A program made the translations under genes and the position numbers. From the IMG/VR virus record IMGVR_UViG_3300004807_000972, positions 1 through 21,814 of that record: a stretch of 21,814 bases of DNA; one strand, written 5' to 3'. Shown here piece after piece: positions 11,182-21,814 of the stretch; position 1 is the stretch's first letter; each line of letters starts with the position of its first letter. Origin of the DNA: a virus. The notes below the pieces were generated by a model. The model was given only the letters and a program-made list of their open reading frames with translations. It was not told the DNA's origin and did no database searches.

Positions 11182-11189
11182 GATAAATT
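11182..11189 (+). promoter_or_regulatory. Candidate late promoter octamer (GATAAATT)
   Basis: GATAAATT differs in the last base from NATAAATA and ends 20 nt before the GTG start at 11210, the same distance as at 3988 and 8193. Transcription would start near 11195, just ahead of AGGA (11199-11202). A 6-bp stem CAGTAA/TTACTG with a TTTT loop lies directly upstream (11165-11180), but it is too weak to call a terminator. Confidence 0.4.
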
Positions 11190-11209
11190 ATATATAATAG
11201 GAAATAACA

Positions 11210-13519
11210 GTGTCAACAACAGTCAGTTCAGTAACGTCCGGTGGTATTTTAACTGTAGCCTCGTCTACTGGTTTCAGTGTCAACGAGTCGGTACAACTAA
11301 CTGGAACACCATTTGGCGGACTAGTTGCTAATTCTACCTACTGGATTATAAGTACAACTTCTAGTACTATTACACTAAGTACATCTCTTTACGGATCTGC
11401 TATTTCAATAACAGGCGGTTCTGGATCTATGACACTTACCGCTTATAGACAAAGCGGCCCAGGAGTTGGAAATACTATTACAGCTAATACTGCTGGCGAT
11501 TATAATTCCATACAAGCTATTGCCGCTAAAGTTTTTGGGCCAGCCGCAGATGCTACTCCAACTTACGGATATAATCAAACACTACTAAGCTCACAAGTTC
11601 CAGTAGTAGGTACTGGCGGCGCAAAAATCACTCAACTAGAATGGCAAAATCTAGCACGAGATTTAGTATACGCTCGTATTCACCAAACTGGTAACGTAAA
11701 CGAAGCAAATAACTTACCGTATCCTACAACATCAAATTCAATAACTGAATCTTTTAGAAGTGCTTATTATAATTATGCACAGCTTGTTCTTGCAAACGCT
11801 CAAACAGCAGATGCTGGACAAATATTACCAGTTACAGTTGGCACCGCTCAGAGATTTAATGAGTGGAACGGGGACATTTATAGTACAGTAACACTAGACT
11901 TTGGTAGTACCGCAGCCGCTAGAGGGTTTTATAATGCTGGCGGCAGTATACAAATTACTTGTTCGCTAACTGGTTCGTTTGGTCCAAAGAGTACCGCTAA
12001 AGATAATACATGGGCTGCCATGTTTGGTGCCGCAGGAACTATCACAATAGGAAGAAATTCTACATTTACAACAGGCGGTCTTGGTACTAGCGGATATACA
12101 AGCACACCTACTAATATTGGTTTCTTTCAATTAACAACAGCATCTCAGTTGGTGTTTACAGAAACACCTCCATCAGGATCTTATGCGGCCAATAGTTTTA
12201 AAATATTTGCATATTTAGATGCTACTAGTCGTTACATGTATCTTAACATACAGTATAATGATGACAGTACATCAACAGCAGGATCTGCAGTACAATGGGC
12301 AGGCGATGAACCTATAGATGGACTGCTAACGCAAAATATTAGTTGTAATAGAGCTAATGGTTCCTATGTGTCATGCCCACCACCAACAATATATTTTGCA
12401 GGCGATTTGACAAACATGTCTGGACTACCAGGATTATATGGACTAAGTGCTAGTGCATATAATGTCAATGAAGGCGACACTTTTATTGTCTATTTACAAA
12501 CGCAAAACGTTAATAATGGTACACAAGTATACTATACTGTTTCTGGTATGGGTAATACTCCTAACGGAGTTGCTAGATATACGGCCACTAGTCCGTACTT
12601 TATAGTAGATGCATCTGGAAAAGGAACTGTACAATTTACTATTGCAAATGATTTGTATTCTGACGGTTTGAGTACTATGACTATAACATTGTCTAATACA
12701 CTAGCTAGCGTTACAGTATATGTAAATGATACATCTAAAACACCAACTAGTTATGTAGTTGTTGGAACAAACAGTAATTTTTCTGGCCCAGGTACTGCAC
12801 AAATGTCTGGCAACACATTTACCGTTCCTGCCGGTATATATTCTATACACGCTTACTTAATAGGTGGTGGTGGCGGCGGCGGAAACTGGGCAGGCGGAGG
12901 CGGAGGCAGCGGACAATTAATAGGCCCGCTGACTATTCCGGTCACTCCAGGGCAAACACTTAGTGCATTGGTTGGCGCTGGCGGCAATCAAGGGCAAGGC
13001 GGCGGCACAACTTATTTTGGCGCATATACAGCAGTCGGTGGAAGTACTGGAAATAATGGTTCAGGCGGCAGTGGCGGTAGTGGCGGCGGAAATGGTAATG
13101 GTTACGGCGGCGGATCCGCAGTAAGCGTTCCTAATGCCTACTATTATTTAGGCGGTGGTGGCGGTGGAGGAACTGCTGGCGGCGGCGCAAACGCTTCAGG
13201 AGCATCTGGCGGTCCAGGCGGAGCTGGTACAAATCTTCAAAATTTTGGTGGCGGAATAAATTCTTACTTTATAGGTGGCGGTGGCCAAGGTGGCGGTTCT
13301 GGTGCAGACACATACGGCTCTGCTGGATATGGTGGCGGCGAAGGTGGTGGCTCGGGATCAAACGGATCTAATGGTATTGATGGAACCGGCGGCGGTGGTG
13401 GTGGTGGCGGTGCGACCGTTTCAGGCGGAACATTCAGCGGCAGATATAGTAATTCTACCATTACTGGTAATGCAGGCGGCAAAGGCGGTGCTGGCGCTAT
13501 ATGGATCAGCTGGCCATAA
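11210..13519 (+). CDS. Virion adhesin paralogue B with Calx-beta-like and glycine-rich C-terminal domains (769 aa)
   Basis: This is a probable receptor-binding structural protein. Residues 1-80 are a Ser/Thr-rich module (T-G-F-S-V-N-E-S-V-Q-L-T-G, then Y-W-I-I-S) with no counterpart in the previous gene. From about 85 to 400 it parallels that gene: D-Y-N-S, Y-G-Y-N-Q-T-L, W-Q-N-L-A-R-D-L-V, F-Y-N-A-G-G-S-I-Q-I, L-T-G-S-F, D-N-T-W-A-A-M-F. Around 411-505 a Y-N-V-N-E-G-D-T-F-I-V-Y segment looks Calx-beta-like. Residues about 525-769 form a glycine-rich phage domain: F-T-V-P-A-G-I-Y-S-I-H-A-Y-L-I-G-G followed by long G-runs broken by S, N and A. Such domains build polyglycine-type helical adhesin tips in tail proteins. 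The start is GTG with AGGA 7 nt upstream. Confidence 0.78.
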   Translation: MSTTVSSVTSGGILTVASSTGFSVNESVQLTGTPFGGLVANSTYWIISTTSSTITLSTSLYGSAISITGGSGSMTLTAYRQSGPGVGNTITANTAGDYNSIQAIAAKVFGPAADATPTYGYNQTLLSSQVPVVGTGGAKITQLEWQNLARDLVYARIHQTGNVNEANNLPYPTTSNSITESFRSAYYNYAQLVLANAQTADAGQILPVTVGTAQRFNEWNGDIYSTVTLDFGSTAAARGFYNAGGSIQITCSLTGSFGPKSTAKDNTWAAMFGAAGTITIGRNSTFTTGGLGTSGYTSTPTNIGFFQLTTASQLVFTETPPSGSYAANSFKIFAYLDATSRYMYLNIQYNDDSTSTAGSAVQWAGDEPIDGLLTQNISCNRANGSYVSCPPPTIYFAGDLTNMSGLPGLYGLSASAYNVNEGDTFIVYLQTQNVNNGTQVYYTVSGMGNTPNGVARYTATSPYFIVDASGKGTVQFTIANDLYSDGLSTMTITLSNTLASVTVYVNDTSKTPTSYVVVGTNSNFSGPGTAQMSGNTFTVPAGIYSIHAYLIGGGGGGGNWAGGGGGSGQLIGPLTIPVTPGQTLSALVGAGGNQGQGGGTTYFGAYTAVGGSTGNNGSGGSGGSGGGNGNGYGGGSAVSVPNAYYYLGGGGGGGTAGGGANASGASGGPGGAGTNLQNFGGGINSYFIGGGGQGGGSGADTYGSAGYGGGEGGGSGSNGSNGIDGTGGGGGGGGATVSGGTFSGRYSNSTITGNAGGKGGAGAIWISWP
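12859..13500 (+). repeat. Low-complexity GGT/GGC/GGA glycine-codon tract
   Basis: Runs of glycine codons (GGT, GGC, GGA mixed) encode the C-terminal glycine-rich domain of the 769-aa protein. The synonymous mixing argues against recent slippage, but the tract is locally repetitive and richer in G+C than its surroundings. The antisense strand reads as a proline-rich open frame here, which is an artefact of the composition. Confidence 0.7.
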
Positions 13520-17084: not shown

Positions 17085-17794
17085 TGTACGATATAATTTT
17101 TATCAGTTATAATGAAACTAATGCAGAAGAAAATTTTGCTCGTTTACAAAAACGTTTTAGTGCCCCTACGCTTAAACGTGTAGATGGTGTTGAAGGCATA
17201 CACAATGCTCATATTGCCGCCGCTAGAAAAGCAATGACTAAGATGTTTTGGGTAGTCGACGGTGACGCACAAATCTTAGATTCTTTTAACTTTGACTATC
17301 AAGTGCCTAACAGCGATCTAGAAATGGTTCATGTTTGGCGCAGTATTAATCCAATTAACGATTTAGAATATGGATACGGCGGCGTCAAATTATTGCCTAA
17401 AAAATTAACTATGAATATGAATACTGGTAATATTGATATGACAACAAGTATTAGTACTCTTTTTAAACCAATGCCTGAAGTTAGTAATGTTACAGCATTT
17501 AACACTGATCCATTTAGTGCTTGGCGCAGTGGTTTTAGAGAATGTGCAAAACTTGCCAGCAATATTATTGACAGACAAGATGATGTTGAAACACTTCAAA
17601 GATTAGTTACTTGGTGCAGTACAGGCGATGATAGATCTTATGGAATATTTTCCATAGCTGGTGCGCTAGCAGGAAAAGTTTACGGAGAAAAAAATGCCTC
17701 TAATAAAGAGGCATTGTGTAAGATTAACGATTTTGCTTGGTTAGAAGAACAATTTAATTTACAACAAGCTGTTCAGCAAGCGGAAAAATCTTAG
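17084..17794 (+). CDS. Glycosyltransferase-like protein, pair B member 2 (236 aa)
   Basis: This is a shorter paralogue of the preceding protein. It shares D-I-I-F-I-S-Y-N-E-T-N-A-E-E-N-F, R-V-D-G-V-E-G, a D-G-D motif at 59-61 in F-W-V-V-D-G-D-A, D-L-E-Y-G-Y-G-G-V-K, P-F-S-A-W-R-S-G-F-R-E-C and W-C-S-T-G-D-D then G-I-F-S-I-A-G-A. It lacks the C-terminal extension of about 60 residues present in its partner. The last 41 bp overlap the 3' end of thyX on the other strand. An intrinsic terminator for that strand lies inside its coding sequence (17688-17715), where it encodes N-A-S-N-K-E-A-L. The substrate is unknown. It ends the + strand cassette. Confidence 0.68.
   Translation: MYDIIFISYNETNAEENFARLQKRFSAPTLKRVDGVEGIHNAHIAAARKAMTKMFWVVDGDAQILDSFNFDYQVPNSDLEMVHVWRSINPINDLEYGYGGVKLLPKKLTMNMNTGNIDMTTSISTLFKPMPEVSNVTAFNTDPFSAWRSGFRECAKLASNIIDRQDDVETLQRLVTWCSTGDDRSYGIFSIAGALAGKVYGEKNASNKEALCKINDFAWLEEQFNLQQAVQQAEKS
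17688..17715 (-). terminator. Rho-independent terminator of the - strand operon, inside a + strand gene
   Basis: Read on the - strand, AATGCCTCT (17715-17707), a TTATT loop and AGAGGCATT (17701-17693) form a perfect 9-bp stem, immediately followed by T residues (positions 17692-17688; seven T in all with the two that end the stem). It lies 38 nt past the thyX stop. On the + strand the hairpin is followed by GTGTAAG, so it is directional for the - strand. The + strand bases also encode part of the last glycosyltransferase. Confidence 0.85.
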
Positions 17795-19642: not shown

Positions 19643-19925
19643 TCAATAAATTCATAGGACAGGCAATCTTGAAGAAACTGAGTTCTTTCTCTTGCTCAAA
19701 TCCAATTTTTGTAATGTATATAATAGAATTGTTATGATCTAATGCTAGATCCTGGCCAATGTAATATCGGCCATTTAAATTGTCTTTAATCCAACGATCT
19801 ACGTTCTTGGCAATAACGGGTTTAAAATCGTCTAGTACCGTATACTTAAAGTGTGGAGCGGCAAACTCAACCCTACGTAAGCCAAAATAATTTAGAGGAT
19901 TGGGTTTGCCATTTTTTAATGCCAT
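19638..19925 (-). CDS. Unknown 95-aa protein coupled to the VWA gene
   Basis: No family is recognised. The protein is basic at its N-terminus (A-L-K-N-G-K-P-N-P-L-N-Y-F-G-L-R-R-V), with alternating beta-like segments (F-K-Y-T-V-L-D, Y-Y-I-G-Q-D-L-A-L-D, I-I-Y-I-T-K-I-G-F) and no metal or catalytic motif. The ATG shares one base with the TAA of the VWA/metallopeptidase gene (TAATG), so it is almost certainly translated by coupling. A role as partner or regulator of the ATPase/VWA pair is possible from position alone. Confidence 0.7.
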   Translation of the reverse strand: MALKNGKPNPLNYFGLRRVEFAAPHFKYTVLDDFKPVIAKNVDRWIKDNLNGRYYIGQDLALDHNNSIIYITKIGFEQEKELSFFKIACPMNLLR

Positions 19926-21109
19926 TACGCCGCCTCTTTAGCAAATTCGTAATAAGCATATTCTCCAAACGGTGGAACAATTTTATCAGTGCCGTGGATG
20001 ATGAATACTGTATCGCAGTAATCCGGATCACCCCAACTGCCCCAAGGATAACCATCAGTAAACATAATAAACTTTTTAGGGTTAATGTCATGTTCTTTCA
20101 TGTATTCCCAGTTGGCATCAAACTCAGTTCCGCCACCACCCATAACTTCGTAGTCATCAAACTCGTCCATAGTGTAACCACTGAAGTCTTGTTCGTTATA
20201 TACTTTTGTATCAAAGCACCATAGCTTAATATTAAAGTCTTTGTACTCTTGCATAATGCCTTTAATTTCACTTAAGAAATCTTTAGCTTGGTCATCTCCA
20301 ATTGAACCGGACATATCGATAGCTACGCAGATATCAATTGTTTCCTCAAAATTCATACCTGGAAGTATTGCACCCATGTGCCAACCTTTACGATTAGGAC
20401 GTTGGAAAGTAAAATCGTTACGGATGACGCTTTGAATTTGTTGACGTAGAATTTCACGCCAATTCATTTTAGGTTCTGTAAACTCTTTAATCATGCGTTG
20501 TACGCCAGCTGGAGTATTACCTGCACCTGCGGCTTGTGCCGCTTGAATTGTAGCTTCACGAATTTCGTCACGAATTTTCTTCAATTCGTCTTTACTGTAA
20601 CTTGGGCGGCCGTCTTTTCCGTCTTTACCCCAGTCGATGTGATCATCTAATAGTTGACCCAACTGGTTAAGTTGTTCCTCATCCATTTCGTCAAAGATGC
20701 GATCATAAACTTCTTCAGCACCCATGCCATAGTATTTTTGATCATGGAAGATTTTAATGCCTTCAATGGTATGATCACCGATTTTATCACGTACAATTTG
20801 TCCGTTTACGCAATAGTCTGCGGCAATGTTAAAAATAGCAGGATTACGTCCTTCTCGGCGACTCATATGATCGAACACGTTATGCAAAATTTCGTGTGCA
20901 ATAACAAACTCAATTTGTTTGATACTTAGTGGCTCGAAGAATTTACGATTAAAATAGATGGCACGACCGTCTGTAGCCGCTGTATTACACCATTCCTCTG
21001 CTTCTTTAATTTGTAAGCGAGTGGCTAGATTACCAAAAAATGGATGACGTAGCAATAACCCTACACGGGCTACAATAATTTTATCGATAATTGGATCTGC
21101 GTGTGACAT
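19925..21109 (-). CDS. VWA-like domain metallopeptidase family protein (DUF2201-type), MoxR partner
   Basis: This 394-aa protein has an N-terminal zinc-peptidase-like domain and a C-terminal von Willebrand A domain. H72-E-I-L-H76 is the HExxH motif. It is followed at about 92-102 by F-N-I-A-A-D-Y-C-V-N, whose Asp is a candidate third ligand as in DUF2201 proteins. After a helical, charged linker (140-215), the VWA domain begins near 256. Its MIDAS is D265-M-S267-G-S269, with G-G-G-G-T328 and a T-D352-G completing the metal site. Proteins of this type usually work with a MoxR AAA+ ATPase, and that gene lies directly upstream here. The ATG is preceded by AAAGGA and a consensus promoter. Whether the peptidase site is active is unknown. 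Confidence 0.9.
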   Translation of the reverse strand: MSHADPIIDKIIVARVGLLLRHPFFGNLATRLQIKEAEEWCNTAATDGRAIYFNRKFFEPLSIKQIEFVIAHEILHNVFDHMSRREGRNPAIFNIAADYCVNGQIVRDKIGDHTIEGIKIFHDQKYYGMGAEEVYDRIFDEMDEEQLNQLGQLLDDHIDWGKDGKDGRPSYSKDELKKIRDEIREATIQAAQAAGAGNTPAGVQRMIKEFTEPKMNWREILRQQIQSVIRNDFTFQRPNRKGWHMGAILPGMNFEETIDICVAIDMSGSIGDDQAKDFLSEIKGIMQEYKDFNIKLWCFDTKVYNEQDFSGYTMDEFDDYEVMGGGGTEFDANWEYMKEHDINPKKFIMFTDGYPWGSWGDPDYCDTVFIIHGTDKIVPPFGEYAYYEFAKEAA

Positions 21110-21134
21110 GTATGTTCCTTTATGCTATGTATAT

Positions 21135-21163
21135 ATTATAACAGGACCCGAAGGTCCTGTCAA
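21135..21163 (-). promoter_or_regulatory. Consensus sigma70 promoter with extended -10
   Basis: On the - strand TTGACA (21163-21158) is followed by a 17-bp spacer and TATAAT (21140-21135). Both hexamers match consensus exactly, and a TG one base before the -10 makes it an extended -10 as well. Transcription should start near 21128, leaving a leader of about 20 nt with AAAGGA before the VWA gene ATG. The 17-bp spacer is made of the C(UUCG)G hairpin. It is likely to be read by unmodified host RNA polymerase, that is, early in infection. Confidence 0.8.
21141..21160 (-). terminator. C(UUCG)G hairpin after the ATPase gene
   Basis: ACAGGACC (21160-21153), TTCG and GGTCCTGT (21148-21141) form a perfect 8-bp stem closed by the very stable cUUCGg tetraloop on the - strand RNA. 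It begins 19 nt after the ATPase stop. It is not followed by a clean T run but by TATAATATATA, so it may be a terminator, an mRNA 3'-end stabiliser or a processing signal. T4 is known to use C(UUCG)G hairpins between genes. Confidence 0.55.
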
Positions 21164-21179
21164 CTAACCCTAAACCGAT

Positions 21180-21814
21180 TTATTTCTCAGTTGCGGCGCT
21201 AATATACTTACCAAATTTAGCATGGAAGTCATCAAAGCATTTGATTTCATCTGGGTCTAGCGGTAGTTTGTAGCTAGATAATGCTAGTTTAGTACCCATA
21301 ATAACCAATTCTGTTTCAAAATTATTCATCATAAATTCGAAGAAGTTATTAACTTGATCATTCCAGTTTTTAGCTTTCTTTTCACAAGCATCTTTTAACT
21401 CATAGCACAAAGATACTGTCAAAGAATACATAGCTGAAATTTCTTTTGAATCCATCTTTTTAACCTTACCGCTCAAAATATCGCTTGGGTTAGGCATCTT
21501 GCTTGCAACTTTACGGTGAGCCATAAATTTAATAGCAAGACCTTCTCCAATTGAACCACATGCCAAATCGGTAAGTGTATTCACGTCAGTGTCATCATCT
21601 GTAAGCAATTCGCTTACAAAACTCCAAGAGCGAGGTGTGGCAAAAGCACGTGAGCTAGACTTTGGATCGAAATCGTAAAGTTCTTTTTTGGCAAAAGTAA
21701 GGAAACCAACAACATCCTTATGGATCTTGTTTTCAGTAGCCCAGTCAAACCAGTCATCCCAATCTACCGTCATTTCCAAGTGTACAAAACGATTGGCCAA
21801 CGGAGCAGGCATAC
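21180..21814 (-). CDS. MoxR-type AAA+ ATPase, C-terminal part (truncated by window edge)
   Basis: The frame is still open at the window edge, so the N-terminal part with the P-loop and Walker B lies beyond it. An ATG at 21812-21810 is internal: P-A-P-L-A-N-R-F immediately follows it, the conserved MoxR/AAA+ box that carries the arginine near the end of the ATPase core. The remaining roughly 200 residues form a helical lid-like domain: W-D-D-W-F-D-W-A, D-V-V-G-F-L, then A-T-P-R-S-W-S-F-V, which matches the post-core (T/S)-P-R segment of MoxR sensor 2. MoxR proteins act as chaperone-like ATPases with VWA partners, and the VWA/metallopeptidase gene follows downstream. The function in the phage cycle is unknown. 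Confidence 0.85.
   Translation of the reverse strand, partial: MPAPLANRFVHLEMTVDWDDWFDWATENKIHKDVVGFLTFAKKELYDFDPKSSSRAFATPRSWSFVSELLTDDDTDVNTLTDLACGSIGEGLAIKFMAHRKVASKMPNPSDILSGKVKKMDSKEISAMYSLTVSLCYELKDACEKKAKNWNDQVNNFFEFMMNNFETELVIMGTKLALSSYKLPLDPDEIKCFDDFHAKFGKYISAATEK

Follow-up and report, generated by a model that had tools for sequence, protein, structure and literature searches.

The closest described counterparts of the element analysed here are the PeSLs, which Arbiol et al. 2010 and Comeau et al. 2014 are said to have reported from the T4-like phages RB49, phi1, PST and nt-1, RB49 being the phage in which they were described. Terminator activity was reportedly found in RB49 and phi1. 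The abbreviation stands for "promoter early stem loop", and PMC4503421, which discusses these elements, presents it as a composite promoter-terminator motif of T4-like phages. The title of Comeau et al. 2014, as cited there, likewise speaks of promoter-terminator motifs. In the RB49 sequence, 12 consensus-type promoters have a spacer hairpin of at least 7 bp, against 0.17 expected, and all 12 hairpins start 0-14 nt past a stop codon; none of them is followed by a U-tract. A scan of KVP40 gave just one spacer hairpin of at least 7 bp, so not every T4-like phage uses them.

The window, as we call the whole stretch of DNA analysed, is a complete 21.8-kb IMG/VR virus record (IMGVR_UViG_3300004807_000972, 21,814 nucleotides) and is probably a genome fragment. 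On its minus strand, a 29-bp element lies between an ATPase gene and a VWA gene. The features of this junction and of the genes around it are as follows.

21180 to 21812, minus strand: upstream gene, a MoxR-like AAA ATPase (phrog_1297) truncated by the contig end to its C-terminal part
21158 to 21163, minus strand: -35 hexamer TTGACA, whose ACA doubles as the base of the hairpin stem
21141 to 21160, minus strand: hairpin ACAGGACC-TTCG-GGTCCTGT, 8 bp, inside the promoter spacer (from the fold and covariation)
21142 to 21143, minus strand: extended -10 TG, which in the hairpin pairs with the C and A of the -35
21135 to 21140, minus strand: -10 hexamer TATAAT (from a promoter scan and direct reading)
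21128, minus strand: predicted transcription start of the VWA unit, placed 7 nt past the -10 by promoter geometry
21116 to 21121, minus strand: likely ribosome-binding site of the VWA gene, AAAGGA, picked out by eye
19925 to 21109, minus strand: downstream gene, a DUF2201 metallopeptidase-like/VWA-like protein (phrog_1314)
17693 to 17715, minus strand: hairpin AATGCCTCTTTATTAGAGGCATT with a T-run, about 40 nt beyond the thyX stop codon, within the end of a convergent plus-strand ORF

Read directly from the window, the minus strand from 21163 to 21135 is TTGACAGGACCTTCGGGTCCTGTTATAAT, that is, TTGACA-GGACCTTCGGGTCCTGT-TATAAT with a spacer of 17 nt. All 12 hexamer positions match the consensus, and a TG precedes the -10. 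An earlier note on this DNA had described just such a promoter, with its extended -10 TG and an 8-bp, TTCG-capped stem running into the -35, and the reading agrees with it exactly. The stem, ACAGGACC/GGTCCTGT, consists of eight Watson-Crick pairs, or ten if one G-U and one U-A pair are counted; ACA from the -35 and TGT from just ahead of the -10 are part of it, and its loop is TTCG. Among cUUCGg hairpins with a stem of more than three pairs, it is the sole case in the window. Folded as RNA, it has a predicted energy of -16.5 kcal/mol (z = -5.6) and beats all 200 shuffles.

About 0.012 perfect hexamer pairs with 17-nt spacing are expected by chance in the window, and the chance probability of a stem of at least 8 bp, given the hexamers, is about 0.001. 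Exact matches at all 12 positions occur twice in the window, at the junction element and at 11216-11187. The second pair (11187-11216, minus strand) has an 18-nt spacer without a hairpin, is antisense to the two plus-strand tail-region ORFs between which it lies and is possibly due to chance.

Since the junction loci were gathered through similarity of the VWA protein, and not through the motif, the junction counts are not circular. At a VWA identity of at least 66.5%, the element is present in 120 of 127 junctions, in 35 distinct forms, and the seven junctions without it represent two forms from sister lineages. In the scoring, five junctions of the closest group fell under "hp_other" because the true hairpin scored below a longer, spurious one; L032, L212, L171 and L061 are junctions of this type that do contain the element. 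The earlier note had suggested a search of related ATPase/VWA junctions, and across those of the clade the hexamers are kept as well as the pairing, the latter through compensatory changes. Over the 35 distinct forms, pairing is maintained in 97.9% of cells, and changes on both sides of the stem are found in 60 cells, compared with 21 +/- 3 in shuffles. The covariation score is 0.543, as against 0.136 for shuffled data and at most 0.175, i.e. threefold lower, for slid structures; relatedness is retained by the slid structures and lost in the shuffles. Given this covarying conservation in 35 distinct forms and the chance probability of about 0.001 for the stem, a chance overlap of promoter and hairpin, to which we assign a negligible probability, is rejected. 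To judge from these comparisons, the overlap is not chance.

The nature of the variation bears on what the palindrome is for. Among the forms, GG/CC is swapped for CC/GG and the middle pairs vary. At L302, where the element lies upstream of the VWA match, the -35 becomes TTGACG (A to G) and the stem partner changes from T to C, so that the pairing is preserved at the expense of one consensus promoter base. Repressors and MerR-type activators classically bind at palindromes placed between -35 and -10, and the spacer palindrome of the junction occupies this position; it might therefore be a DNA operator, with a phage or host protein dimer on the spacer blocking or activating the promoter. A single conserved operator would, however, keep its letters, whereas here the letters of the stem differ between relatives while the pairing stays, and the conserved palindrome sequence expected of an operator was not found among the relatives. 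In addition, the loop keeps a UNCG, which is relevant in RNA, the sister junctions described below have an upstream hairpin instead, and the spacer is 17 nt long as opposed to 19-20 in MerR-type promoters. We consider the operator reading very unlikely.

The loop points in another direction. It is a UNCG in 91 of the 120 element-bearing junctions, and a UNCG loop is specially stable in the RNA of one strand only, here the minus strand. Because this stability is confined to RNA of the strand that is made when polymerase continues past the ATPase gene, selection appears to act on the hairpin as an RNA structure in ATPase read-through transcripts, the last step of this argument being deduced from the sequences.

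The promoters of the ATPase genes in the same clade serve as an internal control. They lie 43-64 nt ahead of the start of the protein match and are of the sigma70 type, the hexamers matching at 10-12 of 12 positions in 87 of 87 distinct cases. A spacer hairpin of at least 6 bp is absent from 86 of these 87 promoters and present in one. Since these promoters are good and yet all but one have no such hairpin, palindromic spacers are not a general property of these phages, and the hairpin belongs to the ATPase/VWA junction. The ATPase gene having its own promoter, ATPase transcripts would begin 1.2 kb ahead of the junction and meet the hairpin at their far end. Exact consensus hexamers had been called unusual in the earlier note; they are not, since one relative has 18 exact pairs, with spacers of 15-19 nt, and the ATPase promoters come as close as just described. 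The same control bears on the proposal that the hairpin acts as a DNA cruciform within the promoter, as in the promoters of the virion RNA polymerase of phage N4. The self-complementary stem inside the promoter would suit such a role; against it, the hexamers follow the consensus for the host's sigma70, they recur without a hairpin in the neighbouring ATPase promoters, and the conserved UNCG points to RNA. This makes the cruciform a still more improbable explanation than the operator.

We judged the membership of the element among PeSLs on sequence, by direct comparison with RB49. Like the RB49 elements, it joins a sigma70-consensus early promoter and a stem-loop immediately past the stop codon of a gene with the same orientation, and RB49, too, has the hairpin within a 17-nt spacer, for example TTGACAGGGGATCGGTGATCCCCTATAAT. 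By its sequence, the promoter is a strong sigma70-like early promoter (12/12, 17 nt, extended -10), it shares one short cassette with the stem-loop as in RB49, and the -35 begins 16 nt past the ATPase stop codon, between co-directional genes. It is also carried by T4-like phages, to go by the relatives that encode gp23: the gp23 T4-type major capsid family was found in five of seven long relatives bearing the element, and none was found in the window, itself a fragment. The differences concern style and copy number. In the window, the stem extends into the promoter sequence itself, to ACA in the -35 and to TGT ahead of the -10, and is capped by a UNCG loop, whereas RB49 has GGGGATC-type stems with loops of 3-5 nt; and here one conserved copy sits at a fixed ATPase/VWA junction, while RB49 has many copies. 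Given its RB49-like layout, we class the element with the PeSLs, with its own style of stem and loop. The architecture as such is already known from T4-like phages.

The motif is found beyond this junction. Among the matches listed to the hexamer pattern, 84 of 119 viral ones have a stem that is paired throughout, versus 2 of 117 bacterial ones, and at least 30 fully paired viral copies do not lie ahead of VWA genes, a few of these 30 being cut off by a contig end before the next gene. Most of the non-VWA copies among the matches listed begin no more than 25 nt past an upstream stop codon, and some precede genes for a clamp loader, a single-strand-binding protein, the small subunit of ribonucleotide reductase or a DNA ligase. 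On two other viral contigs (L135 and L226), a 29-mer identical to that of the window stands ahead of unrelated genes. As to the multiple copies, in plastic regions prone to recombination, that are expected of PeSLs, the relative G002 has three spacer hairpins of at least 7 bp, including that of the ATPase/VWA junction, and the relative G005 has one. In G002 (L240), a 185-kb relative, the early region has additional promoters whose spacers are palindromic but form different stems (TTGACAGGGCACCCAAAGCCCTGTATAAT, TTGACTGCCTTACCAAAAGGCAGTACAAT), at 27324, 29284 and 36244.

More distant junctions show the two signals in another arrangement. In 56 of 84 distinct junctions with a VWA identity below 68%, a hairpin lies upstream of the -35 and is followed by a sigma70 promoter; the remaining ones include promoter-only cases. 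The distance from hairpin to -35 is mostly 1-28 nt, and many of these hairpins have a T-rich tail; two distances, 46 and 49 nt, coincide with poor promoter matches and are possibly spurious. At the homologous junction, sister phages and Sinorhizobium phage Phosso thus have the same two signals in the same order, but as separate modules, usually 1-28 nt apart and often with a T-rich tail on the hairpin.

In a tree of 147 VWA proteins, built by a quick search without bootstrap and with the root not fixed, 68 fused rows fall into one 70-row clade (SH-aLRT 98), and clades with a separate hairpin and promoter adjoin it. Two rows inside the clade depart from this: in L283 the outer stem has decayed, and in L286 the hairpin is kept and the hexamers are weaker. 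The simplest reading of this distribution is that the clade of the window fused hairpin and promoter in one merger, although the direction, from separate to fused, can be taken only from the distribution because the root is not fixed.

What does the hairpin do at the end of the ATPase gene? As regards an intrinsic terminator, the stable G+C-rich hairpin is present (-16.5 kcal/mol), while a U-tract directly 3' of the stem is absent, TATAATAT coming next, and a terminator scan of the window did not call the junction hairpin. In two straboviruses, Morganella phage MP1, where a terminator is annotated, and Escherichia phage VR26, a cUUCGg hairpin with a near-identical core, GGACCTTCGGGTCC, also lies at a co-directional junction, but there a T-run follows the hairpin and TTGACA and TATAAT do not flank it. 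The dual signal put forward in the earlier note, a 3' end and a new start at one site, holds in that both signals are conserved and stand as separate neighbouring modules at distant junctions; its element of true termination does not fare as well, as the hairpin has no U-tract, and its further suggestion that the junction may set the ATPase:VWA ratio is speculative.

A hairpin of this kind could instead be a signal for 3'-end protection or processing, with polymerase continuing and exonucleases or an endonuclease leaving an ATPase mRNA that ends there. The great stability of the UUCG hairpin and its want of a U-tract would fit, but the hairpins of the sister junctions often have T-rich tails, and the spacer hairpins of RB49 also lack a U-tract, yet PeSLs are promoter-terminator motifs by the title, at least, of Comeau et al. 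2014. We regard this reading as possible but rather unlikely; it is a sub-case of the composite-element explanation and does not exclude it. The hairpin may either terminate transcription or merely protect the 3' end, U-tracts being absent both here and in RB49.

The explanation that we favour, and hold to be probable, is that the 29 bp form a composite of a 3'-end hairpin and an early promoter that divides the ATPase and VWA units, its activity as a promoter and its part in termination or 3'-end formation both being predicted. Host sigma70 polymerase would start the ATPase unit at the ATPase gene's own promoter. In the RNA read through from that gene, the promoter spacer would fold into the UNCG-capped hairpin, which would form or protect the 3' end of the ATPase mRNA, by termination or as a block to 3' exonucleases, so that the RNA would end, or be trimmed back, just before the VWA unit. 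As DNA, the same element would serve the VWA unit as a strong sigma70 promoter of the extended type, and that unit would start 7 nt past the -10 and probably extend to the hairpin at 17715-17693 past thyX, the probable terminator of this minus-strand unit from VWA to thyX. The promoter's own RNA would exclude the hairpin, which is expected only in ATPase read-through RNA.

More tentatively, and as something that we would entertain without favouring, one merger in a T4-like lineage may have given rise to the 29-bp element, in which promoter and stem have bases in common and the promoter would therefore coevolve with the RNA hairpin; the hairpin, devoid of a U-tract, would still yield efficient 3' ends because the AT-rich -10 acts as its tail.

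With the junction as a PeSL-type element, the known range of this architecture comes to include a large group of T4-like phages that are uncultured, and the compensatory changes provide comparative evidence that the hairpin half is selected as an RNA structure. The contrast of fused and separate signals at one homologous junction would also provide a natural experiment on whether 3' ends can form at a hairpin that has its bases in common with a promoter and is not followed by a U-tract.
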